Positions 14,498 through 56,917 of a stretch of DNA of 64,000 bases are shown piece after piece. The DNA lies in the NCBI GenBank assembly GCA_947449315.1, contig CANFRC010000008.1:1-64000 (forward strand), read 5' to 3'. Position numbers and translations under genes: made by a program. Position 1 is the first letter of the stretch; every line of letters begins with the position of its first letter. Origin of the DNA: Bacteroidota bacterium (GTDB lineage Bacteria; Bacteroidota; Bacteroidia; 2-12-FULL-35-15). The notes beneath the pieces were generated by a model, which did not search any database, was not told the DNA's origin, and saw only the letters and a list, made by a program, of their open reading frames with translations.

Positions 14498-16573
14498 ATG
14501 AAAAAAATTACTCTGCTAACAATTTTAGTATTTACATTTTTAATTGCAAGGGCTCAAACATACACAAGTACTTCAGGAGGATCCATTCCAGATGCAGGCC
14601 CGCAACTCTCTTTCCCTATTACTGTTTCAGGCCTTACTCCTTCAACAATCGATACAGTTTTTGGATTAGAAACTGTTTGTTTTACAATTACACACACTTG
14701 GGATGCGGATCTTAGTATCAAGCTGCAGGCACCTGATGGAACGATTGTAGATCTTTCTATCGCTAATGGTGGAGATGGAGACAATTACACTTCAACATGC
14801 CTAAATGCATATGCAAGCACATCCATAGTCACGGGGACAGCTCCATTTACAGGTGTTTTCAAACCGCAAGGCTTTATTGGTGCAATAAATAATGGTCAAA
14901 ATGGAAATGGCGAATGGAACTTATTAGTACAAGATTCTTATGGTTTGGATACAGGCAGTGTGATGGACTGGAACCTTACTTTTGGGAATTCTCCTGCAAA
15001 ACCTTTTAGTTTTAAATCTTCGAACTTGCCGATTGTGGTTGTAAATACAGCAGGAATGAGCATTCCGAATGAGCCCAAGCTGCAAGTTCAAATGGGAATC
15101 ATTTATAATGGCGTAGGGATGAGAAATTATTTGACGGATCCATTTAATAATTATAATAATAACATTGGTATTGAGACACGTGGTTCCAGTTCTTCGGGTT
15201 TTCCGCAGCAGAGCTATGGGTTCGAAACAAGAGATATTAATGGGACACAGCACGACACAATACTGCTTGGTATGCCGAGCGAACACGACTGGATTTTGTA
15301 TGCGCCATACGATGACAAAACATGTATGCGGAATGTTTTGAGTTATGATATTGCAAATAAAACTGGCCGCTATGCTTCCCGAACAAAATTCTGCGAATTG
15401 GTGATTAATGGTCAATATCAGGGAATATATGTACTAGAAGAAAAAGTAAAACGGGATGCAAACAGAATAAATATTTCTAAATTATTGCCGACTGATATCA
15501 CTGGAGATCAATTGACAGGCGGATATATCATAAAAGTAGATAGAGATGATGGCCCTGGAAGCTTTTGGACATCACCATATCCGGCAGATGATGGAACACT
15601 AATTAACTTTGTGTTTGATTATCCTCAAAACGGAACAATTGTTCCACAACAAAGAGCCTATATTCAATCCTATGTTGATACCGTTGAAAATGTTTTAGCA
15701 AGCTCAACTTTTGCCGACCCAACAAACGGTTACAGAAAGTATATTGGTGTCAATACATTTATTGATTATTTTATTTTAAACGAAGTAAGTAAAAATGTGG
15801 ATGGCTATCGATTAAGCACCTATTTTTATAAAGATAAACAAAGCAGTGGCGGAAAATTGAAAGCAGGTCCAGCCTGGGATTACAATTTAGCTTGGTGGAA
15901 TGCAAATTATTGTGAAGGAGATCTCTCTTCCGGTTGGGCTTGGAATCAAGGGACGATATGCACCGGAGGTTGGCAAGGAAATTTTTGGTGGAGAAGATTA
16001 TTAGAAGACCCAGCCTATACAGCTGATCTTAAATGCAGATGGAATGAGCTCCGATTAACCACGCTCAGTATTCCCGTATTAAATAATTTTGTTGACTCAA
16101 TTGCGTCCTACTTGAATGAAGCACAAGCAAGACACTTTTCTGCATGGCCTATTTTGGGCGTATATACTTGGCCAAACCCTAGCCCTATTCCGGCAGATTA
16201 TCCAGGAGAAATTACTGCCCTAAAAACATGGATCCATGACCGTATCACATGGCTAGATGCGAATATGCCTGGAACATGTAACGTAGGGATAAATGAAAAT
16301 GCGATGTTAGAAAATAATGTCACCGTTTTTCCAAATCCATTCAATGCTTCACTAAAAATAAATTTTTATTTATTGCATAAAGAAAAATTAAAAATCGATC
16401 TCACCGACCTTTTAGGGAAAGTGGTAAAAGTTGTAGCTGAAAAAGAATTCACAGAAGGCGATAATACAGTTGAAATAAGCATTAATAATGAAGAAATTGT
16501 TAGTGGAATGTATCTCTTACATATTTCCTCAAACAACGGAACAATTGTAAAAAAGATTACTAAAGCAGAATAA
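14498..16573 (+). CDS. T9SS-secreted CotH-kinase-family protein with P domain
   Basis: A 691-residue protein with four parts: a signal peptide (1-19), a proprotein-convertase P domain (about 20-168; WDADLSIKLQAPDGT and DTGSVMDWNLTF), a CotH-like kinase domain (about 175-590), and a type A T9SS sorting domain (about 612-691; VFPNPFNASLKI ... GMYLLHIS). CotH in Bacillus spores is an atypical protein kinase. Here KAGPAWDYNLAWWN matches the conserved Asp-containing catalytic segment and YVLEEKVKRD lies near the expected ATP-binding Lys/Glu region. Export by T9SS to the cell surface or medium is well supported. Whether it phosphorylates anything outside the cell, where ATP is scarce, is open. It converges on corA. 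Confidence 0.85.
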   Translation: MKKITLLTILVFTFLIARAQTYTSTSGGSIPDAGPQLSFPITVSGLTPSTIDTVFGLETVCFTITHTWDADLSIKLQAPDGTIVDLSIANGGDGDNYTSTCLNAYASTSIVTGTAPFTGVFKPQGFIGAINNGQNGNGEWNLLVQDSYGLDTGSVMDWNLTFGNSPAKPFSFKSSNLPIVVVNTAGMSIPNEPKLQVQMGIIYNGVGMRNYLTDPFNNYNNNIGIETRGSSSSGFPQQSYGFETRDINGTQHDTILLGMPSEHDWILYAPYDDKTCMRNVLSYDIANKTGRYASRTKFCELVINGQYQGIYVLEEKVKRDANRINISKLLPTDITGDQLTGGYIIKVDRDDGPGSFWTSPYPADDGTLINFVFDYPQNGTIVPQQRAYIQSYVDTVENVLASSTFADPTNGYRKYIGVNTFIDYFILNEVSKNVDGYRLSTYFYKDKQSSGGKLKAGPAWDYNLAWWNANYCEGDLSSGWAWNQGTICTGGWQGNFWWRRLLEDPAYTADLKCRWNELRLTTLSIPVLNNFVDSIASYLNEAQARHFSAWPILGVYTWPNPSPIPADYPGEITALKTWIHDRITWLDANMPGTCNVGINENAMLENNVTVFPNPFNASLKINFYLLHKEKLKIDLTDLLGKVVKVVAEKEFTEGDNTVEISINNEEIVSGMYLLHISSNNGTIVKKITKAE

Positions 16574-46264: not shown

Positions 46265-47092
46265 ATGAAAAAGTTCGTTTTAGTAAGTACAGTCGCTACA
46301 GCAACAGCAATAGCTTGTATGTCGTTCCAAAAAGAAAAAGAATTACCACAAATAACCAATGAAGGTCCTGTAAGAGAACTTCCAATGGTAAGCAATGAAG
46401 CCTTTAAACGCGGAGAAATGTTGACTTTCCGAATGCATTATGGGATCATAGAAGCAGGGGTTGCCACATTAGGAATTACCGATGAGGCAAAAGAAATAGC
46501 AGGGAGAAAAACATTCCATGTTATTGGTTTAGGAGAATCGAAAGGCGCTTTCGATTTTTTCTATAAAGTCCGCGACCGTTATGAAACTTATATTGATGAA
46601 AAATCAATTGTTCCTTGGATCTTTTTAAGACATGTGAACGAAGGAGGTTACAAGATCGAGCAGAGTTATGTGTTCAATCACTTCAATGAAAAAGTAAGTG
46701 TAGGAGACGGTCAGACATATGCTATTGAACCGAATATGCAGGACATGCTTTCCGCATTTTATGCAGCCCGCAACTTAGATCTTTCTGCGGCGAAACCCGG
46801 CGAAACATATGCTATCAAATGTTTTATGGATAAAGAAGTTTGGCCTTTAAAAGTTAAATTCATTGGTCGCGAAACCATTACAACGGATCTTGGAACATTC
46901 AAATGCTTAAAATACCGTCCAGTGATGCAAAAGGGACGCGTCTTCAAACATGAAGAAGACGTAAATATCTGGATCACTGACGACAAAAACCATATACCTA
47001 TATTAGGACAAGCAGATGTCTTGGTTGGTTCTATCAAAGCAGAATTAATGAAGTATTCAGGATTAGCAAATCCAGTTGCTGTAGTAAAATAA
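46265..47092 (+). CDS. DUF3108 exported protein
   Basis: A 275-residue protein with an N-terminal export signal; Ala-Ile-Ala-Cys at 15-18 could be a lipobox. The mature part carries the DUF3108 features: LTFRMHYGIIEAGVATL near residue 55, FYKVRDRYETYID, and the late VNIWITDDKNHIPI. The family has a lipocalin-like beta-barrel architecture and no firm function. It is monocistronic, flanked by a hairpin upstream and a terminator downstream. Confidence 0.85.
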   Translation: MKKFVLVSTVATATAIACMSFQKEKELPQITNEGPVRELPMVSNEAFKRGEMLTFRMHYGIIEAGVATLGITDEAKEIAGRKTFHVIGLGESKGAFDFFYKVRDRYETYIDEKSIVPWIFLRHVNEGGYKIEQSYVFNHFNEKVSVGDGQTYAIEPNMQDMLSAFYAARNLDLSAAKPGETYAIKCFMDKEVWPLKVKFIGRETITTDLGTFKCLKYRPVMQKGRVFKHEEDVNIWITDDKNHIPILGQADVLVGSIKAELMKYSGLANPVAVVK

Positions 47093-47111
47093 ACAACATC
47101 CCCATATGCAT

Positions 47112-47143
47112 AAAAGCGCCATTCCGAAAAGAGTGGCGCTTTT
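47112..47143 (+). terminator. Terminator of the DUF3108 gene
   Basis: AAAAGCGCCA (47112-47121) and TGGCGCTTTT (47134-47143) form a perfect 10-base stem ending in a T-run. It begins 19 bases after the stop. Confidence 0.85.
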
Positions 47144-47223
47144 GTATATCTAATGAGAATCATTTTTTATAATTAGTTGATTTAACTATCTTGCAGCACT
47201 ATTCTTCGAATAAAAAAAATATT

Positions 47224-48192
47224 ATGGAATTAAAACCTGAAATCATAGAACGCATCAAATTATTGGATGCAAAATACCAGGCCATGGGACAAGACCTTTC
47301 ATCTTACCTGGATGGTTTGTTATATGCAGATTATTTAACCTATTGGGATTACATACACCTCGACACATTATTAAGTTTACAAACTCCAAAAACACAAATA
47401 CCCGATGAAGAAATTTTCATCATGTACCATCAGATAACAGAATTGTATTTTAAACTTTGTTTACACGAATACAATCAGCTTGCTGAAAAAGAAGAGCTGG
47501 ATGTAAAATTTTTGACCGACCGCATCACCCGTATCAATAGATACTTTGACGGGTTGATCACTTCTTTTGATATCATGGTGGATGGGATGGATCCAAAGCA
47601 ATTTTTAAAATTCCGAATGAGTTTATTACCTGCAAGTGGTTTTCAATCGGGACAATACCGAATGATAGAAATTTGTTCTACCACTTTTAAAAATCTTGTT
47701 GCAAAAGATATCCGTAACACATTTTCTGATGAGGTGAATGATGCGCAGATAGAAAAAATGTATGAGCATATTTACTGGAAGGCAGGAGCAACAGAGCTTG
47801 CTACAGGTAAAAAAACATTGACACTTATTCAATTCGAAGAAAAATATCAAAAAGCATTTATTGAATTAGCACAAAAATTCAAACATACCAATCTACTTGC
47901 ATTATACAAATCACTTTCGGCAGAAGATCAAAAAAATGAAAAATTGATCCTTGCTTTAAGACAAATGGATGTGAATGTAAATGTGAACTGGCCTTTGTCT
48001 CACTATAAATCTGCGGTCCGTTATTTACAAAAAGACCCAGAAGACATTGCCGCAACAGGTGGTACCAACTGGCAAAAATATTTGCCTCCGCGTTTTCAAA
48101 AACGTATTTTTTATCCTGAATTGTGGAATGATTATGAAATGGATGAGTGGGGAAAAGCTTGGGTGAAAAGTGTCGTTTTTAATCAGAAATAA
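47224..48192 (+). CDS. kynA: Tryptophan 2,3-dioxygenase
   Basis: A haem enzyme that opens the indole ring of tryptophan with O2 to give N-formylkynurenine. The 322 residues include YADYLTYWDYIHLDTLLSLQ, FIMYHQITELYFKLCLHE (with the substrate-side His/Tyr/Phe), FLKFRMSLLPASGFQSGQYR and the C-terminal PLSHYKSAVRYL. I choose the ATG at 47224; the frame is open to a TTG at 47191. Other kynurenine-pathway genes are not in the window. Confidence 0.93.
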   Translation: MELKPEIIERIKLLDAKYQAMGQDLSSYLDGLLYADYLTYWDYIHLDTLLSLQTPKTQIPDEEIFIMYHQITELYFKLCLHEYNQLAEKEELDVKFLTDRITRINRYFDGLITSFDIMVDGMDPKQFLKFRMSLLPASGFQSGQYRMIEICSTTFKNLVAKDIRNTFSDEVNDAQIEKMYEHIYWKAGATELATGKKTLTLIQFEEKYQKAFIELAQKFKHTNLLALYKSLSAEDQKNEKLILALRQMDVNVNVNWPLSHYKSAVRYLQKDPEDIAATGGTNWQKYLPPRFQKRIFYPELWNDYEMDEWGKAWVKSVVFNQK

Positions 48193-49507: not shown

Positions 49508-50482
49508 TTACCATCCTAATATCCAAGCAAACATCAAAGGAGCAACAATTGTTGCATCACTTTCTACAATAAATTTAGGAGTATCTATATCTAATTTTCC
49601 CCAAGTAATCTTTTCATTGGGTACAGCTCCAGAATATGAACCATAACTGGTTGTAGAATCTGAGATTTGACAGAAATAGCTCCAGAAAGGAACATCATGC
49701 ATTTCCATATCCTGATACAACATAGGCACCACACAAATCGGGAAATCGCCGGCAATACCTCCTCCGATTTGGAAGAAGCCTACTCCTTTACCGCCTGAAT
49801 TTTTCGGGTACCAATCGGCCAACCAAGCCATGTATTCTATACCTGATTTCATTGTAGATGCTTTGATTTCATTCTTAATAACATAAGAAGCAAAAATATT
49901 ACCCATGGTTGAATCTTCCCAACCTGGAACCACCATAGGTAAATTACGTTCTGCCGCAGCCAACATCCATGAATCTTTTGGATCTATTTCATAATATTGC
50001 TTTAACTCGCCACTCAATAAAATCTTGTACATGTATTCATGTGGAAAGAAACGTTCTCCTTTATCATCGGCATCTTTCCATATTTTATGAATATGCTTTT
50101 GCAATCTTCTGAATGCCTCTTCTTCTGGGATACACGTATCTGTAACACGGTTAAAGTGATTGTCCAACAGGTCTCTTTCTTCCTGAGGAGTTAAATCACG
50201 GTAATTAGGAACACGTTTGTAATGGGAATGCGCAACCAAATTCATGATATCTTCTTCCAAATTGGCTCCTGTACAAGAAATAATGTCAATTTTCCCTTGA
50301 CGAATCATTTCCGCTAACGACTTACCCAATTCTGCAGTACTCATGGCACCCGCAAGGGTCACCATCATTTTACCGCCTTCTGTTAAATGTGTTTCATACC
50401 CTTTTGCAGCATCTACCAAAGCAGCCGCGTTAAAGTGTTTATAATGTTTTTCAATAAAATTTGAAATAGGTCCTTTGCTCAT
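49508..50482 (-). CDS. Deoxyhypusine-synthase-family protein
   Basis: A 324-residue Rossmann-fold enzyme of the deoxyhypusine synthase family. Bacteria have no eIF5A, so the eukaryotic job is impossible here. MVTLAGAMSTAELG and ISCTGANLEEDI are NAD-side motifs, and GGGIAGDFPICVVPML and SGAVPNEKITWGKLD carry the active-site Lys (Lys296), aligned with the human catalytic Lys in WGK. A cyanobacterial homologue (SpeY) is reported to take part in homospermidine synthesis, and homospermidine is a common polyamine in this phylum. So spermidine- or putrescine-dependent aminobutyl transfer is plausible, but the substrate is not proven. Confidence 0.87.
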   Translation of the reverse strand: MSKGPISNFIEKHYKHFNAAALVDAAKGYETHLTEGGKMMVTLAGAMSTAELGKSLAEMIRQGKIDIISCTGANLEEDIMNLVAHSHYKRVPNYRDLTPQEERDLLDNHFNRVTDTCIPEEEAFRRLQKHIHKIWKDADDKGERFFPHEYMYKILLSGELKQYYEIDPKDSWMLAAAERNLPMVVPGWEDSTMGNIFASYVIKNEIKASTMKSGIEYMAWLADWYPKNSGGKGVGFFQIGGGIAGDFPICVVPMLYQDMEMHDVPFWSYFCQISDSTTSYGSYSGAVPNEKITWGKLDIDTPKFIVESDATIVAPLMFAWILGW

Positions 50483-50613: not shown

Positions 50614-50643
50614 TTGTCATCTAAAAAAAAGATAGTACATTTG
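50614..50643 (+). promoter_or_regulatory. Promoter of the lamin-tail/TonB/endonuclease locus
   Basis: TTG (50614-50616), a 19-base spacer and TACATTTG (50636-50643) match the Bacteroidota consensus perfectly. The leader to the ATG at 50751 would be about 100 bases and is structured. Confidence 0.7.
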
Positions 50644-50677
50644 TAATGTAATTAAAAAGGAAGCGAACAACCTACAA

Positions 50678-50720
50678 GAATTCTTCAATCGAAGAGTATT
50701 CCGAAACCGCTCCCGTTCGG
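50678..50720 (+). promoter_or_regulatory. Structured 5' leader, two hairpins
   Basis: The first hairpin (50678-50701) pairs GAAT with ATTC and TTCTTC with GAAGAG around an AATC loop. The second pairs CCGAA (50701-50705) with TTCGG (50716-50720). Both lie between promoter and start codon, and the second is followed by CTTTT, too short for a strong terminator. Confidence 0.4.
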
Positions 50721-50750
50721 CTTTTAACAATTTATTTAAAACAAAACATC

Positions 50751-51665
50751 ATGAAAAAACTTTTACTATCCGTATTTGCTTTTGCGTCAATTATTAATGC
50801 TAGCGCGCAGTGTAATGAATTATTTATTTCCGAGTATGTTGAAGGAACTGGAAACGATAAAGCCCTTGAAATTTACAATCCAACAAATAGCGCTATCAGC
50901 TTAACAGGATATCGTGTTGAGCGTTTTTCAAACGGCGCTTCTACCTCAACGCTAGGTGGTGTTTTAAATCTTACTGGAACCATTGCCGCACATGGTGCTT
51001 TTGTAATTGCAAACGGACAAACAACAACAACAACGGGATCACCAGCTTGTTCTCCTGCATTGCAAGCATTGGCAAATCAGTTAGATGGTGTTTATCCTGC
51101 ACCTACTTATATGAATGGGAATGATGCAATAGTATTGTACAACAACACATCTATTGTTGATATTTTTGGTATGACCGGAGACGCTGCAATGACAACCAGC
51201 CAAGCATGGAGCGATGTGTTTCCCTATGATGGCTCTGTTGGTACTTGGTGGACAAAAGACCATACTTTAAGAAGAAAAGCTAGTGTTCTGCAAGGTGTAA
51301 CTGTTAATCCTTCCCCAGAATTTAATGTAACGTTAGAATGGGATTCTTTATCTGTAAATACTTGGAGTGGATTAGGTACTCATACTTGTAGCTGCCCTAC
51401 AGGAATCAACGAAATTGATAATTCAGTTTCAATAGTTGTGTATCCAAATCCAACAAATGATAATCATTTCAACATTTCATCACCTGAAGCAATTAAGGTT
51501 GTAGAAGTATATACTATTTTAGGAGAACTCGTTATTTCTCAAACAGGGAGCAAAACAGAAAAAGAAATGATGATTGAAACAAGTAAATTTGCAAAAGGAG
51601 TTTATATTGTAAAAGCATTGTTCGAGAATAATAAAACAACCGTAGTAAAACTTTCTGTCCAATAA
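50751..51665 (+). CDS. T9SS-secreted lamin-tail-domain protein
   Basis: A 304-residue exported protein. A signal peptide (1-19, NASA then QC) is followed by a lamin-tail (LTD) domain (about 20-215) with LFISEYVEGTGNDKALEIYNP and TGYRVERFSNGAS. The last 75 residues are a T9SS type A sorting domain (VYPNPTNDNHFNI ... KGVYIVKALF). LTD domains in bacterial secreted proteins often go with extracellular nucleases. It is the first gene of the locus and has its own promoter; a strong terminator separates it from the TonB receptor. Confidence 0.86.
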   Translation: MKKLLLSVFAFASIINASAQCNELFISEYVEGTGNDKALEIYNPTNSAISLTGYRVERFSNGASTSTLGGVLNLTGTIAAHGAFVIANGQTTTTTGSPACSPALQALANQLDGVYPAPTYMNGNDAIVLYNNTSIVDIFGMTGDAAMTTSQAWSDVFPYDGSVGTWWTKDHTLRRKASVLQGVTVNPSPEFNVTLEWDSLSVNTWSGLGTHTCSCPTGINEIDNSVSIVVYPNPTNDNHFNISSPEAIKVVEVYTILGELVISQTGSKTEKEMMIETSKFAKGVYIVKALFENNKTTVVKLSVQ

Positions 51666-51678
51666 ATTAAATTTGAAA

Positions 51679-51716
51679 GCATCCCGTTCTGCAATTGTAG
51701 AACGGGATGCTTTTTT
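51679..51716 (+). terminator. Strong terminator between the lamin-tail and TonB-receptor genes
   Basis: A perfect 12-base stem (51679-51690 with 51699-51710), an 8-base loop, and six Ts. Its T-run ends only 15 bases before the TonB receptor start codon, so receptor expression needs read-through or a promoter overlapping it. TAAATTTG at 51668-51675 is an exact -7 box but has no good upstream TTG. Confidence 0.88.
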
Positions 51717-51731
51717 ATCTGCCTGATTCAA

Positions 51732-54560
51732 ATGAAACGCTCTATATTATTATTAATTTTTATTTCTTTTGCTTCACACCTCTTCTCACAAGGTGGAGAA
51801 ATAAAAGGAACCATCAAAGATGCAACAACAGGTGAAACTGTTGTAGGTGCAAGCGTTACAATAGCTGCGGGAAAAGGTGTAGTAACAGACATTAACGGAA
51901 ATTACGCAATAAAAATTGATTCTACAGGACAGTACACTCTTCTAGTTTCCTATGTTGGATATGCGCCCCAAAAACTAAAAGTAAAGGTTTTAAACAAGCC
52001 CATTGTTGCTAATTTTTCATTAGAAACAACTACTCTAAGTGAAGTGGAAGTGGTAGCAGATGTAGCAAAAATAAGAGAGACCCCTGTTGCCTTTTCAACT
52101 ATTTCAACAAAACAAATAAAAGAAGAATTAGGAACTCGAGATTTACCGATGATTCTTAATTCTACACCCGGTGTTTACGCTACGCAACAGGGAGGAGGAA
52201 GCGGTGATGCTCGAATTAACATTCGAGGTTTCGATCAACGAAATATTGCAGTGATGGTAGATGGGGTTCCCGTGAATGACATGGAGACAGGTGCAGTATA
52301 CTGGAGCAATTGGGATGGGTTAGGAGATATCACACAAACGATGCAAGTTCAAAGAGGATTGGGTGCATCAAAATTGGCAATTCCATCTGTAGGAGGAACT
52401 ATTAATATTATTACAAAAGGTATTGATCAAAAACTAGCATTCAATATCAAACAAGAAGTGAATGATTACGGCTTATATAAAACATCATTCGGATTTAATT
52501 CAGGACAATTAAAAAAAGGATGGGGAATCACTTTAGGAGGTTCCAGAAAATGGGGGAGTGAATGGACGAATGCAACTTATACCGATGCTTGGTCATACTT
52601 CGGAAAAATTCAAAAAAGATTTAAAAAACAATTATTTAGTTTCAGTGCAAGTGGCGCGCCCCAATCACATGGTCAACGAAGCACTCAATTGCCAATTGCT
52701 GTTTATAGCAAAAAAATGGCTGAGGGCCTAGGAATTAATGTAGACTCTTCCTATGAATATATGGGAACTCACCCACCATCTTATTTTACCACTGCAACTC
52801 AAGGCGAAAGAGGGTTGAAATATAATCCCAATTGGGGCTATTTAAATGGAGCTGTTTTTAATGAAAAAATAAATTATTTCCACAAGCCTCAATTTAACTT
52901 AACACACCTGTGGACACCGAATGAAAAACTAAATGTATCAACGGTGATTTATCTTTCTGTTGGTCATGGTGGAGGAACTGGAATGAAGACATCAGCAGGA
53001 AGAGATAGCACAGATGGGCAGTTGGATATTCAGACTATCTACGATCACAATTTAACAACCTATTCTCCCAGCTACAGTGCAACAGAACATGCTTCAAGTA
53101 ATTATTTACGCTCTGCTCATAATGACCATATTTGGTATGGTGTATTATCTTCCTGGAATTACAAAGTAAATAAAAACATTTCTACACTTTTTGGTGTTGA
53201 TGCACGATATTATAAGGGTAGCCATTATCAATCTGTTTACAATTTAATAGGTGGTGATTACGCCATTGACAATTCTAATAAAAATCAACCTGTAGGTTTT
53301 GGAAATACGCAATATAGCATAAAGAGAGTTGGCGATAAAGTAAGCTATTACAACGATTCAAAAGTAATGTGGGGAGGATTGTTCGGGCAAATTGAATACA
53401 AAAAAGATAAATGGAGCACATTTGTAACGGGTTCATTTTCTGAAACAGGTTATCAACGAATTGATTATTTTAAAAAGAAGGATCTAGTAATTGATGGTCA
53501 AACATATGAGCAAGCTGTTGGTTTCGGAGATGTATTTTATACGAATGGATCCCAAAACGTTACTGCGACATCTGGTGCAAACATTACCACTAGCGGTGAC
53601 ACTACATTCATTGCAAATCCTGGCAAACCTGTCGTTTCTATTTTAAATGCAACATCCTACACCAATACTTCTGCTGGATCAAGAGTATCAACTACAAAAC
53701 AAAAATGGTTTTTAGGATACACCGTTAAAGGTGGCGCTAATTATAATATCAATGATTATCACAATGTATTTATTAACTTCGGTTATTTAAATATGGCTCC
53801 GCGAATGAATGCAGTATTTGATAACAATAACAAAACGTTTTTGGCAATTGAAAGTCAAAAAGTATCTGCAATTGAAGCTGGTTATGGGCTTCACAACCGC
53901 CAATTTTCTGTAAATGTAAATTTATATTACACATTATGGAAAAACAAACCACCACTTACCACACCAAGTGTAGTCACTCCTGATGGAACTTTTTCTTATA
54001 ACATAAATGGCCTAGATGCTTTGCATAAAGGAATTGAAATTGATTTATTTTATAAGATTCTTAAAAATTTAGATTTTGATGGATTGGTTTCTATCGGTGA
54101 TTGGAAAACGATTTCGGGGTCTACTGTTTATGTTACTGATAATAACAATGTAACTGTTGCAACTGTAGATTTTAGCGCAAAAAATGTGCATGTTGGCGAT
54201 GCTGCTCAGGAACAATTTGTTGGAAGTCTTCGATACGAAATAATTAAAAAATTATACATCAAACCCCGCTATACATATTTTGCTAAAAATTATGCTAACT
54301 TTGATCCTATAGCATTAGTTGGCACTAACAAAGATCGCGAGTCCTGGAAAATGCCAAATTATGGTCTGCTAGATATTTATGTAGGCTATGATTTTAATTA
54401 CTGGAAATTAAAATTTGGAGTGACTGCTGGAATCTTAAATGTAATAAATACAACATACATTACGGATGGATTTAATGGAGTAAATTTTGATGCAACTACT
54501 ACCAACGTATATATGGGTATGGGCAGAAGATTCAACATTGCTTTACGAATAGGATTTTAA
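51732..54560 (+). CDS. TonB-dependent outer-membrane receptor
   Basis: A 942-residue outer-membrane transporter. It has a signal peptide (1-19), a carboxypeptidase-regulatory-like domain (about 22-105, GEIKGTIKDATTGETVVGASV), a plug (about 115-230; RDLPMILNSTPGVYATQQGGG and RGFDQRNIAVMVDGVPVND) and a beta barrel ending in Phe (LRIGF). It imports a substrate using TonB energy. The neighbours on both sides are secreted, and the next gene is an endonuclease, so the substrate may be a nucleotide or DNA fragment; that is inference. No SusD partner is present. Confidence 0.9.
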   Translation: MKRSILLLIFISFASHLFSQGGEIKGTIKDATTGETVVGASVTIAAGKGVVTDINGNYAIKIDSTGQYTLLVSYVGYAPQKLKVKVLNKPIVANFSLETTTLSEVEVVADVAKIRETPVAFSTISTKQIKEELGTRDLPMILNSTPGVYATQQGGGSGDARINIRGFDQRNIAVMVDGVPVNDMETGAVYWSNWDGLGDITQTMQVQRGLGASKLAIPSVGGTINIITKGIDQKLAFNIKQEVNDYGLYKTSFGFNSGQLKKGWGITLGGSRKWGSEWTNATYTDAWSYFGKIQKRFKKQLFSFSASGAPQSHGQRSTQLPIAVYSKKMAEGLGINVDSSYEYMGTHPPSYFTTATQGERGLKYNPNWGYLNGAVFNEKINYFHKPQFNLTHLWTPNEKLNVSTVIYLSVGHGGGTGMKTSAGRDSTDGQLDIQTIYDHNLTTYSPSYSATEHASSNYLRSAHNDHIWYGVLSSWNYKVNKNISTLFGVDARYYKGSHYQSVYNLIGGDYAIDNSNKNQPVGFGNTQYSIKRVGDKVSYYNDSKVMWGGLFGQIEYKKDKWSTFVTGSFSETGYQRIDYFKKKDLVIDGQTYEQAVGFGDVFYTNGSQNVTATSGANITTSGDTTFIANPGKPVVSILNATSYTNTSAGSRVSTTKQKWFLGYTVKGGANYNINDYHNVFINFGYLNMAPRMNAVFDNNNKTFLAIESQKVSAIEAGYGLHNRQFSVNVNLYYTLWKNKPPLTTPSVVTPDGTFSYNINGLDALHKGIEIDLFYKILKNLDFDGLVSIGDWKTISGSTVYVTDNNNVTVATVDFSAKNVHVGDAAQEQFVGSLRYEIIKKLYIKPRYTYFAKNYANFDPIALVGTNKDRESWKMPNYGLLDIYVGYDFNYWKLKFGVTAGILNVINTTYITDGFNGVNFDATTTNVYMGMGRRFNIALRIGF

Positions 54561-54587
54561 AAACAATTATTTTATACCAAATCAAAC

Positions 54588-56861
54588 ATGAAAAAACTAC
54601 TACTTACATCCATTGCAACAATTTGCATTACAATACTGAGTTTCGCTCAGGCTACCTTGCCTATTTCTTGGGGCTTTCCCACAACAATACTTCCAACAGG
54701 ATGGACATCCGCAGGAACAGGGTTTGCCTATTATTCCGGTTCGGGTGCCCCTGCTCCCGCAGCCAAATTCTCTACTACTGGAACTACATTAACAGTGGCT
54801 TTTGCTGGTACGCCTGGAACTTTATCCTACGACTTAGTTGGAAATCCTCCTACAGGATTAACCTGGGCAGGAAATTTTAAAGTAGAGGAATCTGTGAATG
54901 GAACCACTTGGACAACTGTTGCAACATACACGACACTGCCCACTGCTTATACTACATACTCTTCTGCACTATTAAGTACTAGCCGTTATGTACGTTTTAA
55001 TTTTGTTACCAAAACTACTGGAAATGTTGGATTAGACAATGTGACTATTGGAGTTGGTGTTTCTACTACACAACAAATAAATGTGCAACAAAGCGCCACA
55101 ACAATTGTGAATGGGGGAACGTATACTTTGAGTTCTCCGGTAAGTACAATGCTCCCTACAACATTTGCTGTGCAAAACACAGGAACTGTTGGAACATTGA
55201 ATGTGTCTGGGGTTACCATTACAGGACCTGCTGCTGCCGATTATTCAGTAGCATCTTTCCCTTCCACTGTTGCGCCATCAGGAAGTGGAAATATGGTTAT
55301 TAACTTTACGCCTTCCGTTGCAGGTTCACGAATTGCTGCAATAAATATTGCAAATAACGATCCTACCGCTCCTACTTATGTTATTAATATGTATGGTATT
55401 GGTGGAACGCTTGCTTCTGATCCAACAGCTCAGCCTAGCAGCTTTGTGTTTTCTACTATTAAATCATATCAATTCACTGCTAACTTTACAGCGGCATCAC
55501 CAGCTCCAGATGGAGGATATTTAGTTTTAAGAAGAACTGGGTCACCTGTTACTGATGTTCCTGTTGATGGAGTTGATTATATGAGAGGTGATGTTATTGG
55601 AAATTCTAAAGTTGTTTACAGCTCTACAGCGACTGGTTTTTATCCAAATGAACTAGTTGCCAACACAACGTATTATTTTGCTGTTTTCTCCTACAATGGC
55701 CCGGGTGTTTATCGTAATTATTTAACAACGTCACCTTTAACAGGAAGTGCAACAACTTTGGGTTCGATGCAACCCGCTTCCTATTATAGCACAGTTTCAA
55801 CTGCAAGTCCAACATTTGTTACCGACTTACATAATAAAATTAATCCTCACACAATACAATTTTATAGTAGTTATGGACCATTAATGGTAGAACGAATTTA
55901 TAATCGTGATACAACAGCTGGTCAACGAGTAGTAACGTGTGTTTACAGTGGGTTGAATAAAGTTTACAATGACCCTTTTGATTGGACAACAGATGACTTT
56001 AGCCGTGAACACACCTATTGTCAAAGTTGGCAGGTAACGGTTAACTCGCCTACTTTCCAAAGCTTACCTGAGTACAACGATTACCATATGATTACACCAA
56101 CAAATCAAACATTGGTAAATGCTGTAAGAAGCAATTATCCTTTAGGAGAAGTTGTAGGAACACCATTAGCGTCCTCTTATTTAGGAGATAAAATAGGTAA
56201 TGACATTAATGGGCACAAAGTATTTGAACCACGTGATTCTGATAAAGGAGATGCCGCACGTTGTATGTTATATCAATGTATTTGCTACACAGGTGTTGCT
56301 TATTCAGGTCCTGCTAACACAAATGTTGTATACGCTGCGGGTGCTGCTTCATGGTCTTTACCGAAAATTATAAGCAGTGCTATTCCTTATGGACAAGATC
56401 AGGATGTTTTGAAAAGATGGAACTACCAAGATCCTCCTTCTAATTTTGAAATTGCACGCAACGATTATGTTGACTCATTGCAAGGAAACCGTAATCCATT
56501 TATTGATAGTATGCAATATGTTTGCTACATCGATTTTACAACTATGACAAAAATAGCTGGTGTTGCTGCACCATGCAATACTTCTGGTATCAGCGACTAT
56601 CAAACCAACAATGATGTTGTTGTACTTGCACCAAATCCAAACAACGGGAACTTTGTTTTGAATTATACTGCATCAAAAAATCAAAATGTAGCTGTTAAAT
56701 TATATGATATGGTTGGACGAATAGTTTACAACAGTGAGTTAACTGTAAACAGCGGCAACAATACCATTAACATGAACATAGATGGTTTGACGAAAGGGAT
56801 ATATATTTTCGAATTTGTTACATCAACTGGAAAACAAACACAAAAATTAGTGATTGATTAA
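54588..56861 (+). CDS. T9SS-secreted endonuclease I-family nuclease
   Basis: A 757-residue multidomain protein starting 27 bases after the receptor gene. After a signal peptide (1-21) come a carbohydrate-binding-like/choice-of-anchor region (about 22-160), a choice-of-anchor D-type domain (about 165-275), an Fn3-like domain (about 285-385), an endonuclease I domain (about 400-665) and a T9SS sorting domain (about 680-757). The nuclease motif FSREHTYCQSW and DYHMITPTNQTLVNAVRSNYP match EndA/NucM-type ββα-Me nucleases with the catalytic His. It probably cuts extracellular DNA (and RNA). Confidence 0.88.
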   Translation: MKKLLLTSIATICITILSFAQATLPISWGFPTTILPTGWTSAGTGFAYYSGSGAPAPAAKFSTTGTTLTVAFAGTPGTLSYDLVGNPPTGLTWAGNFKVEESVNGTTWTTVATYTTLPTAYTTYSSALLSTSRYVRFNFVTKTTGNVGLDNVTIGVGVSTTQQINVQQSATTIVNGGTYTLSSPVSTMLPTTFAVQNTGTVGTLNVSGVTITGPAAADYSVASFPSTVAPSGSGNMVINFTPSVAGSRIAAINIANNDPTAPTYVINMYGIGGTLASDPTAQPSSFVFSTIKSYQFTANFTAASPAPDGGYLVLRRTGSPVTDVPVDGVDYMRGDVIGNSKVVYSSTATGFYPNELVANTTYYFAVFSYNGPGVYRNYLTTSPLTGSATTLGSMQPASYYSTVSTASPTFVTDLHNKINPHTIQFYSSYGPLMVERIYNRDTTAGQRVVTCVYSGLNKVYNDPFDWTTDDFSREHTYCQSWQVTVNSPTFQSLPEYNDYHMITPTNQTLVNAVRSNYPLGEVVGTPLASSYLGDKIGNDINGHKVFEPRDSDKGDAARCMLYQCICYTGVAYSGPANTNVVYAAGAASWSLPKIISSAIPYGQDQDVLKRWNYQDPPSNFEIARNDYVDSLQGNRNPFIDSMQYVCYIDFTTMTKIAGVAAPCNTSGISDYQTNNDVVVLAPNPNNGNFVLNYTASKNQNVAVKLYDMVGRIVYNSELTVNSGNNTINMNIDGLTKGIYIFEFVTSTGKQTQKLVID

Positions 56862-56888
56862 TTGAGAAAAATTTGATTGAGAAAAAAG

Positions 56889-56917
56889 CGCCATACAGCA
56901 ATGTGTGGCGTTTTTTT
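56889..56917 (+). terminator. Terminator of the nuclease locus
   Basis: CGCCATACA (56889-56897) pairs with TGTGTGGCG (56902-56910) around a GCAA tetraloop, with one wobble pair, followed by seven Ts. Confidence 0.85.

Follow-up and report, generated by a model that had tools for sequence, protein, structure and literature searches.

A TonB-dependent receptor linked to a lamin-tail protein and an endonuclease I: a candidate locus for nucleic-acid scavenging at the surface of a Bacteroidota bacterium

How can a bacterium that degrades nucleic acid outside the cell bring the products inside, and is a dedicated importer encoded next to the nuclease? This question is raised by a locus of three genes in a 64,000-nucleotide stretch of Bacteroidota DNA (G000:C8:1-64000, part of a 2.6 Mb genome), the whole of which is called the window in the following. 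ORF calling places three open reading frames of 304, 942 and 757 amino acids on the same (+) strand, and Pfam searches, combined with NCBIfam for the first and the third, identify their products as a lamin-tail domain (LTD) protein (50751-51665), a TonB-dependent receptor (TBDR; 51732-54560) and an endonuclease I (EndoI; 54588-56861). In relatives of the receptor these genes form a conserved set that exceeds chance, and the function that we assign to the locus, with a probability of roughly 0.58, is the scavenging of nucleic acid at the cell surface.

The product assignments of a preliminary description of the locus agree with the profile searches. Specifically, the first gene encodes a protein with an LTD domain (PF00932, 64.5 bits against a cut-off of 34.3, residues 18-141) and a Por_Secre_tail, also over cut-off, which is a type A tail of the type IX secretion system (T9SS). 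The third gene encodes a multidomain nuclease, in which a jelly-roll region (residues 22-157), a choice-of-anchor D domain (162-260) and a further beta region precede the catalytic domain (Endonuclease_1, PF04231, residues 421-643 approximately; 92.2 bits against a cut-off of 25) and a Por_Secre_tail. T9SS components are present in the genome (GldM, in addition to 90 Por_Secre_tail matches over cut-off); thus, both proteins have what characterizes T9SS type A substrates, that is, a C-terminal tail over cut-off in a genome with T9SS parts, and their N-termini are signal-peptide-like by eye. The product of the second gene combines a CarbopepD_reg_2 domain and a Plug domain (PF07715, 58.1 bits against 23.9) with a beta-barrel predicted in a structure model, with no match to PF00593 in the Pfam search. 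As described beforehand, it has no SusD partner: its neighbours are the LTD and EndoI genes, and PF14322 finds no match in the genome. The broader statement that the genome holds no SusD at all was given up, since a SusC/SusD-like_2 pair is encoded elsewhere (L218). The structure model (mean pLDDT 87.0) resembles PqqU (TMt 0.79, TMq 0.56, rmsd 6.9), and the matches listed by sequence and fold searches of the PDB, namely CarboxypepD domains and generic siderophore, copper and PqqU/YncD-type TBDRs, give no clue to the substrate. The charge of the barrel, considered as a hint of a polyanionic substrate, was likewise dropped, because basic charge is shared by all six other TBDRs of the genome and the clades differ.

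To what extent is the arrangement kept in relatives? Related receptors were gathered from three sources: genome contigs, which gave 50 loci; 59 related genomes, of which 41 had a receptor match at E 1e-60; and an even draw of 296 genomes across the phylum, of which 77 matched the receptor profile. This gave 163 loci with a receptor of at least 780 amino acids, 152 of which were kept as distinct after merging copies alike in residues 150-350; neighbourhoods were called mechanically, and the window clade was delimited as 53 receptors on a FastTree tree. A receptor not linked to nucleases in relatives, named in the preliminary description as the outcome that would speak against it, is not what emerged. 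In fact, an LTD gene directly precedes the receptor on the same strand in 51 of the 52 clade members with a gene in that place, and an enzyme gene is found at +1 to +3 in 43 of 53 (EndoI in 39, a phospholipase D (PLD)-type protein in 4), with no LTD, EndoI or PLD match at -6 to -2 or at +4 to +6 within the clade. LTD-receptor pairs occur in nine family codes (f1, f4, f8, f10, f14, f16, f20, f23 and f29), in all of which except f14 the enzyme is also next door; in the same coding, f27 presumably stands for the group labelled Flavobacteriaceae-type. As the flanking genes vary between clade groups, the trio stays intact while its surroundings change. None of the six other full TBDRs of the window genome has a match to the LTD and nuclease neighbour profiles in the fetched stretches.

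Seven of the ten clade receptors lacking EndoI or PLD (L011, L013, L014, L024, L056, L113 and L115) are located at contig ends, with at most about 1.4 kb behind the receptor or with the contig ending inside it; in L011 the next ORF is cut and shows no catalytic domain. In a tree of 56 rows hand-picked from 167, with support from the SH-like approximate likelihood ratio test (SH-aLRT) only, few outgroups and long outgroup branches, the 12 rows with LTD and nuclease form one group (SH-aLRT 100). On a FastTree of all 167 rows the same label needs 10 changes, in part because contig ends leave members that appear to have LTD only. Since just G000, G054 and G101 yielded clade members in the even sample of 296 genomes, the trait belongs to a limited part of the Bacteroidota: the clade is confined to the window's genus and some families and is not phylum-wide. 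Consequently, co-occurrence of the three families in Bacteroidota, put forward beforehand as a check, is found within the receptor clade and does not extend to the phylum.

The enzyme that accompanies the receptor is not always the same. In four clade loci (L032, L107, L118 and L164) a PLDc_2 protein takes the place of EndoI, in three of them with a T9SS tail, and the PLD superfamily includes nucleases; the home-made PLD profile cross-matched shared N-terminal parts of EndoI proteins (56 matches), and PLD was counted only at 700 bits or more and in proteins that are not EndoI matches. Moreover, a DUF5689 domain lies ahead of EndoI in L116 and L123 and ahead of PLD in L164, so that catalytic parts have been swapped on a shared frame. 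In six clade loci the nuclease gene is followed by 5_nucleotid_C and Metallophos genes, that is, a split 5'-nucleotidase (6 of 41 at +3), typed by Pfam in L018 and by L018-seeded profiles in the other loci. Outside the clade, the +1 gene encodes a type I phosphodiesterase/nucleotide pyrophosphatase in 16 of 97 cases and a DUF5017-like lipoprotein in 14 of 97, the latter recognized by a home-made profile (D5017), several members of which match no Pfam family. Such phosphodiesterases were noted beside receptor relatives at 22 loci (for example L145, L154, L156, L159, L172 and L188-L190), and L156 holds two further genes that are M16 peptidase-like by eye. A group of Bacteroidales loci (L039, L041, L042, L045 and L047) combines a receptor of this family with a DUF5017-like lipoprotein, and no nuclease is recognised there.

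Is the nuclease likely to be active? Its catalytic domain matches the fold of Vvn (1ouo/1oup) with Z 16.8 and 3.1 Å over 181 residues. R473, H475, N511 and R514 are kept in 35 of 35 aligned EndoI proteins and E474 in 33, with Asp in the remaining 2; N511 aligns with the Asn of the Vvn stretch EVNGDRSN. In Vvn, the active-site roles fall to a Glu-His pair and an Asn ligand. On this alignment, the window EndoI retains residues of the active-site type; it resembles Vvn in fold and conserved residues of the catalytic domain and differs from Vvn and the endonuclease I family in being multidomain and T9SS-tailed. The genomes of the relatives also carry other EndoI genes, which score far higher on the Pfam model. 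EndoI-LTD fusions occur in L237, from the window's own genus (LTD 51.8 bits), and in L231 (33.0 bits, slightly short of the 34.3 cut-off). In addition, the available sections of PMC8115612 describe EndA1 and EndA2 of F. johnsoniae as pf00041, pf00932 and pf04231 proteins, that is, LTD-EndoI fusions, listed with 4.66 and 4.13 under phosphate depletion, values that probably represent log2 transcript changes. As to the LTD protein of the window, its residues 3-215 align with positions 6-178, the LTD end, of the model for ExeM of Shewanella oneidensis (E 2.6e-23; 82 bits, far below the model's own cut-off of 1300 bits). The LTD domain of ExeM belongs to an extracellular DNA-degrading system (PMC6085458, in the sections available), in the form of a single polypeptide with OB-type and endonuclease/exonuclease/phosphatase (EEP) domains, whereas the window LTD protein stands alone with a T9SS tail.

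The preliminary description had further read the locus as one promoter, three genes and one final terminator, a layout that stands for the genes, a promoter-like site and a final hairpin and fails for the single unit. The promoter-like site, 5' of the LTD gene (50614-50643, + strand), reads TTG-N19-TACATTTG and is one of 9 matches to the pattern TTG-N19-TAnnTTTG on the + strand of the window; we take it to be the Bacteroidota-type promoter consensus, a likeness that is no evidence of function. The final terminator-like hairpin (56882-56917, + strand) folds with -21.7 kcal/mol (z -5.4). A stronger one (51675-51714, + strand; -30.2 kcal/mol, z -8.9, equalled by 0 of 200 shuffles) is situated within the 66 bases that separate the LTD gene from the receptor gene, 17 bases ahead of the receptor ATG; its stem of 18 uninterrupted pairs, two of them G-U, closes a loop of 4 and runs into a T tract. 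Both were detected by folding, which was used in place of a promoter/terminator consensus scan that listed neither, probably since A-T pairing carries the stem on into the T run.

A hairpin in this place is recurrent. Counting those below -12 kcal/mol with z below -2.5 against dinucleotide shuffles, it is present in 35 of 50 LTD-receptor gaps of the clade, window included. Of 31 gaps between receptor and nuclease genes none has one, and among the other gaps between co-directional genes in these loci 31 of 137 do. For gaps of 40-110 bases only, the proportions are 34/37 and 20/75 (LTD-receptor and control gaps, respectively), with a Fisher p of 1.8e-11 that overstates independence because the loci are related. 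An earlier run with mononucleotide shuffles gave 34 of 49 LTD-receptor gaps, and in 14 of 49 the folding was weaker than -5 kcal/mol, several aquatic Flavobacteriales loci (L013, L015-L020) being among them. The stem sequence varies between loci and the place is fixed, and a few of these hairpins are palindromes without a T run. Similar palindromes, of the CTCCGAAGGGG or CTCCAAAGGGG type and with no T run, lie in the LTD-receptor gaps of L094, L099 and L115 and may be a dispersed repeat. The recurrence of a hairpin after the LTD gene suggests a partial terminator, by which the LTD protein would probably be produced in excess over the receptor and the nuclease, the latter two being made by read-through past the hairpin. 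If so, a hairpin of variable sequence and fixed place could be a general means of making a surface protein in larger amounts than its transporter.

Taken together, nutrient scavenging of nucleic acid is the most economical account of the gene identities, their conserved order, the replacement of EndoI by PLD, the added 5'-nucleotidases, the recurrent hairpin and the conserved residues. Specifically, EndoI, exported by T9SS, would cleave DNA and/or RNA outside the cell, at its surface, where the LTD protein, exported in the same way, may hold the substrate or the nuclease; the receptor would import the released oligonucleotides or nucleotides to the periplasm, and periplasmic nucleotidases would then free phosphate and nucleosides. 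The closest functional parallel is the phosphate utilisation system (PUS) of F. johnsoniae, which, according to the available sections of PMC8115612, joins an outer-membrane TonB-dependent transporter, surface proteins and phosphoester-cleaving enzymes, in other words a polysaccharide-utilisation logic applied to organic phosphorus; EndA1 and EndA2, the nucleases with LTD and EndoI domains, are in the same table. The window locus likewise unites a transporter and a phosphoester-cleaving enzyme (EndoI). In contrast, EndA1 and EndA2 are orphan genes with no transporter, whereas the window nuclease is linked to a receptor, and in the window locus LTD makes up a protein of its own, with neither PusD nor SusD. 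By analogy, the locus may work like a phosphate utilisation system with a nuclease and without SusD. A similar comparison holds for SusC/SusD polysaccharide-utilisation loci (PULs): a TBDR with an N-terminal CarboxypepD domain beside a secreted degradative enzyme is common to both, whereas no SusD adjoins the window receptor, its partner is T9SS-tailed and the enzyme is a nuclease and not a glycoside hydrolase. The nucleic-acid version of the utilisation logic proposed beforehand is thus supported in part, by the linkage with LTD and nuclease within the clade, and not by phylum-wide linkage or by the operon layout.

Extracellular nucleases of DNA-degrading Bacteroidota have already been reported, and in sediments extracellular DNA reportedly makes up a large source of phosphorus (PMC8289736, in the part available). 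In this ecological context the trio could serve as a marker of extracellular-DNA eaters that covers the importer as well as the nuclease. A full-text literature search, covering few subscription papers, returned no description that we recognised of the trio or of the kinship of its receptor presented below.

A second line of comparison leads to natural transformation. In Riemerella anatipestifer, which causes disease in ducks, markerless deletion of either RA0C_RS04915, a CarboxypepD outer-membrane protein, or RA0C_RS04920, a DUF5689/DUF5017 protein, abolishes natural transformation; in the sections of PMC8459023 available, the authors only speculate that RS04915 is an outer-membrane channel and find no homologues of known uptake machinery among the four essential proteins. 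The printed comEC primer matches 2 of 320 genomes of one family code (G656 and G654), in which the order is recA, then further along a comEC-type gene, two genes, an EEP gene (Exo_endo_phos_3), a CarboxypepD receptor and a DUF5689 protein. This order fits the locus numbers and probably represents the published Riemerella locus; in L228, the receptor has 935 and the DUF5689 protein 469 amino acids. In the Riemerella-type genome, the EEP gene stands directly before the transformation-essential gene, and divergent EEP genes lie beside RS04915-like receptors in L228 (11107-12300), L214 (6606-7859) and L166 (2878-3960). A profile of the barrel alone, made from the window clade, gives 95 bits on the Riemerella-type receptor and 122-139 on four RS04915-like relatives, against 385-534 on members of the window superfamily and, on 14 TBDRs outside it (those at hand from fetched loci, one of them a fragment), 36, 43 and twelve values of at most 7.7. 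By this profile, the window barrel is a distant but specific relative of RS04915, beyond the level of generic TBDRs. The 56-row tree places the RS04915 group with the window superfamily (SH-aLRT 95) and separates both from the remaining TBDRs of the window genome. Furthermore, window-family and RS04915-like receptors are neighbours in L166, L204 and L208, at distances of 5.4, 3.8 and 2.0 kb, with an EEP-type gene between them (assigned by Pfam in L166 and by eye in the other two); these loci also hold the genes for a DUF3108 protein and a tryptophan 2,3-dioxygenase-like (TDO) protein, as the window does.

The two systems are alike in the CarboxypepD barrel, in a surface-type partner and in an adjoining gene of a nuclease family (EEP in Riemerella). 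In one relative, moreover, the RS04920-like partner that adjoins the RS04915-like receptor (L204:17271-18650) carries DUF5689 together with LTD (54.8 bits), LTD appearing there as an alternative C-terminal domain of the transformation partner protein. They are unlike in that the Riemerella partner is a DUF5689 protein behind the receptor and its EEP gene is divergent, whereas the partner in the window is LTD, and DUF5689 has no match in the window genome. Hence, the locus is neither a PUL, for want of an adjacent SusD, nor a Riemerella-type pair, for want of an adjacent DUF5689 partner, and it may work like the latter. Between the D5017 profile and RS04920, kinship is weak (hhalign probability 88, E 3e-6 over 106 columns; no match by hmmsearch). 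A tentative extension, which we put forward with low confidence, is that the window receptor and RS04915 are members of a single superfamily, so far unrecognised, of nucleic-acid ports in the outer membrane of Bacteroidota, powered by TonB instead of a pilus and secretin. Its clades would combine different partners (LTD, DUF5017-like, DUF5689) with different enzymes (EndoI, PLD-type, EEP, nucleotide pyrophosphatase) and span the range from scavenging to transformation, with the trio as the branch with a dedicated nuclease. For the study of DNA crossing the outer membrane in Bacteroidota, a trio linking an RS04915-type barrel to nucleases widens the set of candidates.

This kinship gives weight to an explanation other than scavenging of degraded nucleic acid, namely that the receptor passes DNA strands, for transformation or for nutrition, while the nuclease nicks or shortens them at its mouth and ComEC carries the strand across the inner membrane. 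The need for both RS04915 and RS04920 in transformation, the barrel scores, the proximity of the two receptor types and the LTD domain of the L204 partner all fit such a port. So would the ComEC-type Competence domain found in the window genome; its presence says little, however, because PF03772 matches 10 of 14 control genomes. Moreover, among its 30 best BLASTP rows, which do not include the window's own receptor, a Chryseobacterium RS04915-like protein shares only 21-26% identity with window-family receptors, the RS04915 group falls outside the rest of the window superfamily in the tree, no channel activity of RS04915 is reported in the available sections of PMC8459023, and a broad surface EndoI should destroy transforming DNA. 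We therefore hold the port to be rather unlikely for this locus; DNA uptake for transformation, absent from the preliminary description, is nevertheless a live alternative. It is more doubtful that the receptor serves another organophosphate or phosphate and that the nuclease is one of several phosphorus-releasing enzymes. The phosphodiesterase/nucleotide pyrophosphatase neighbours elsewhere in the family agree with this idea, as do the phosphate-induced TonB-dependent transporters of F. johnsoniae with their lipoproteins and phosphodiesterases (PMC8115612, sections available), while in the window clade every enzyme found next door is EndoI or PLD-type. The chance is small that LTD protein and nuclease are employed in biofilm remodelling or in defence against DNA traps, with the cargo of the receptor unrelated and the operon shared by history. 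ExeM has been reported in biofilm formation (PMC6085458, sections available), many receptor loci of the wider family have no such neighbours, and receptors both within and beyond the LTD clade have DUF3108 and TDO genes nearby, which means that long-term synteny without shared function exists. However, the unrelated PLD-type enzyme replaces EndoI at the same place, and the LTD-receptor pair persists with different flanks in 9 family codes, both of which speak against this reading.

Surface scavenging of nucleic acid, the reading that we prefer, also has points to answer for. The substrate of the receptor is one that we infer. Two T9SS tails close together are weak evidence, as tailed neighbours are unremarkable by themselves in a genome with 90 of them. 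Likewise, LTD alone is no pointer to nucleic acid, because the genome encodes two further LTD proteins, one of the CotH kind and one Ig-like; the mature LTD protein of the window is acidic (pI 4.4), and loss of its LTD did not keep ExeM from clearing DNA in vivo, even if activity in vitro fell (PMC6085458, sections available). With regard to linkage, many loci are close kin, so that the counts overstate independence, and L119, L120 and L121 have room downstream and keep LTD and receptor genes with no nuclease at +1 to +3. Among the 152 receptor loci of the wider family, 66 have none of the sought neighbours in the scored places (four of them have a phosphodiesterase gene upstream instead); L140 and L149, two of these 66, adjoin genes that look by eye like glucose-6-phosphate isomerase (547 amino acids) and nadC, respectively. 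Conversely, EndoI of the long type occurs with no receptor in the fetched stretch at seven loci of related genomes (L238-L243 and L248), two of which, G008 and G030, have no receptor match at E 1e-60.

Other genes of the window were noted in passing. The DUF3108 and TDO genes lie upstream of the trio (46265-48192). Each of the two families matches at 32 loci, 30 of them in common (some with the same contig counted twice), including loci outside the LTD clade; they are an old chromosomal neighbourhood of the receptor. Between them and the trio, on the - strand (49508-50482), a protein of the deoxyhypusine synthase family (PF01916, 141 bits) is encoded, here in a bacterium. Finally, a CotH kinase-like protein with a P-proprotein domain and a T9SS tail is encoded at 14498-16573.

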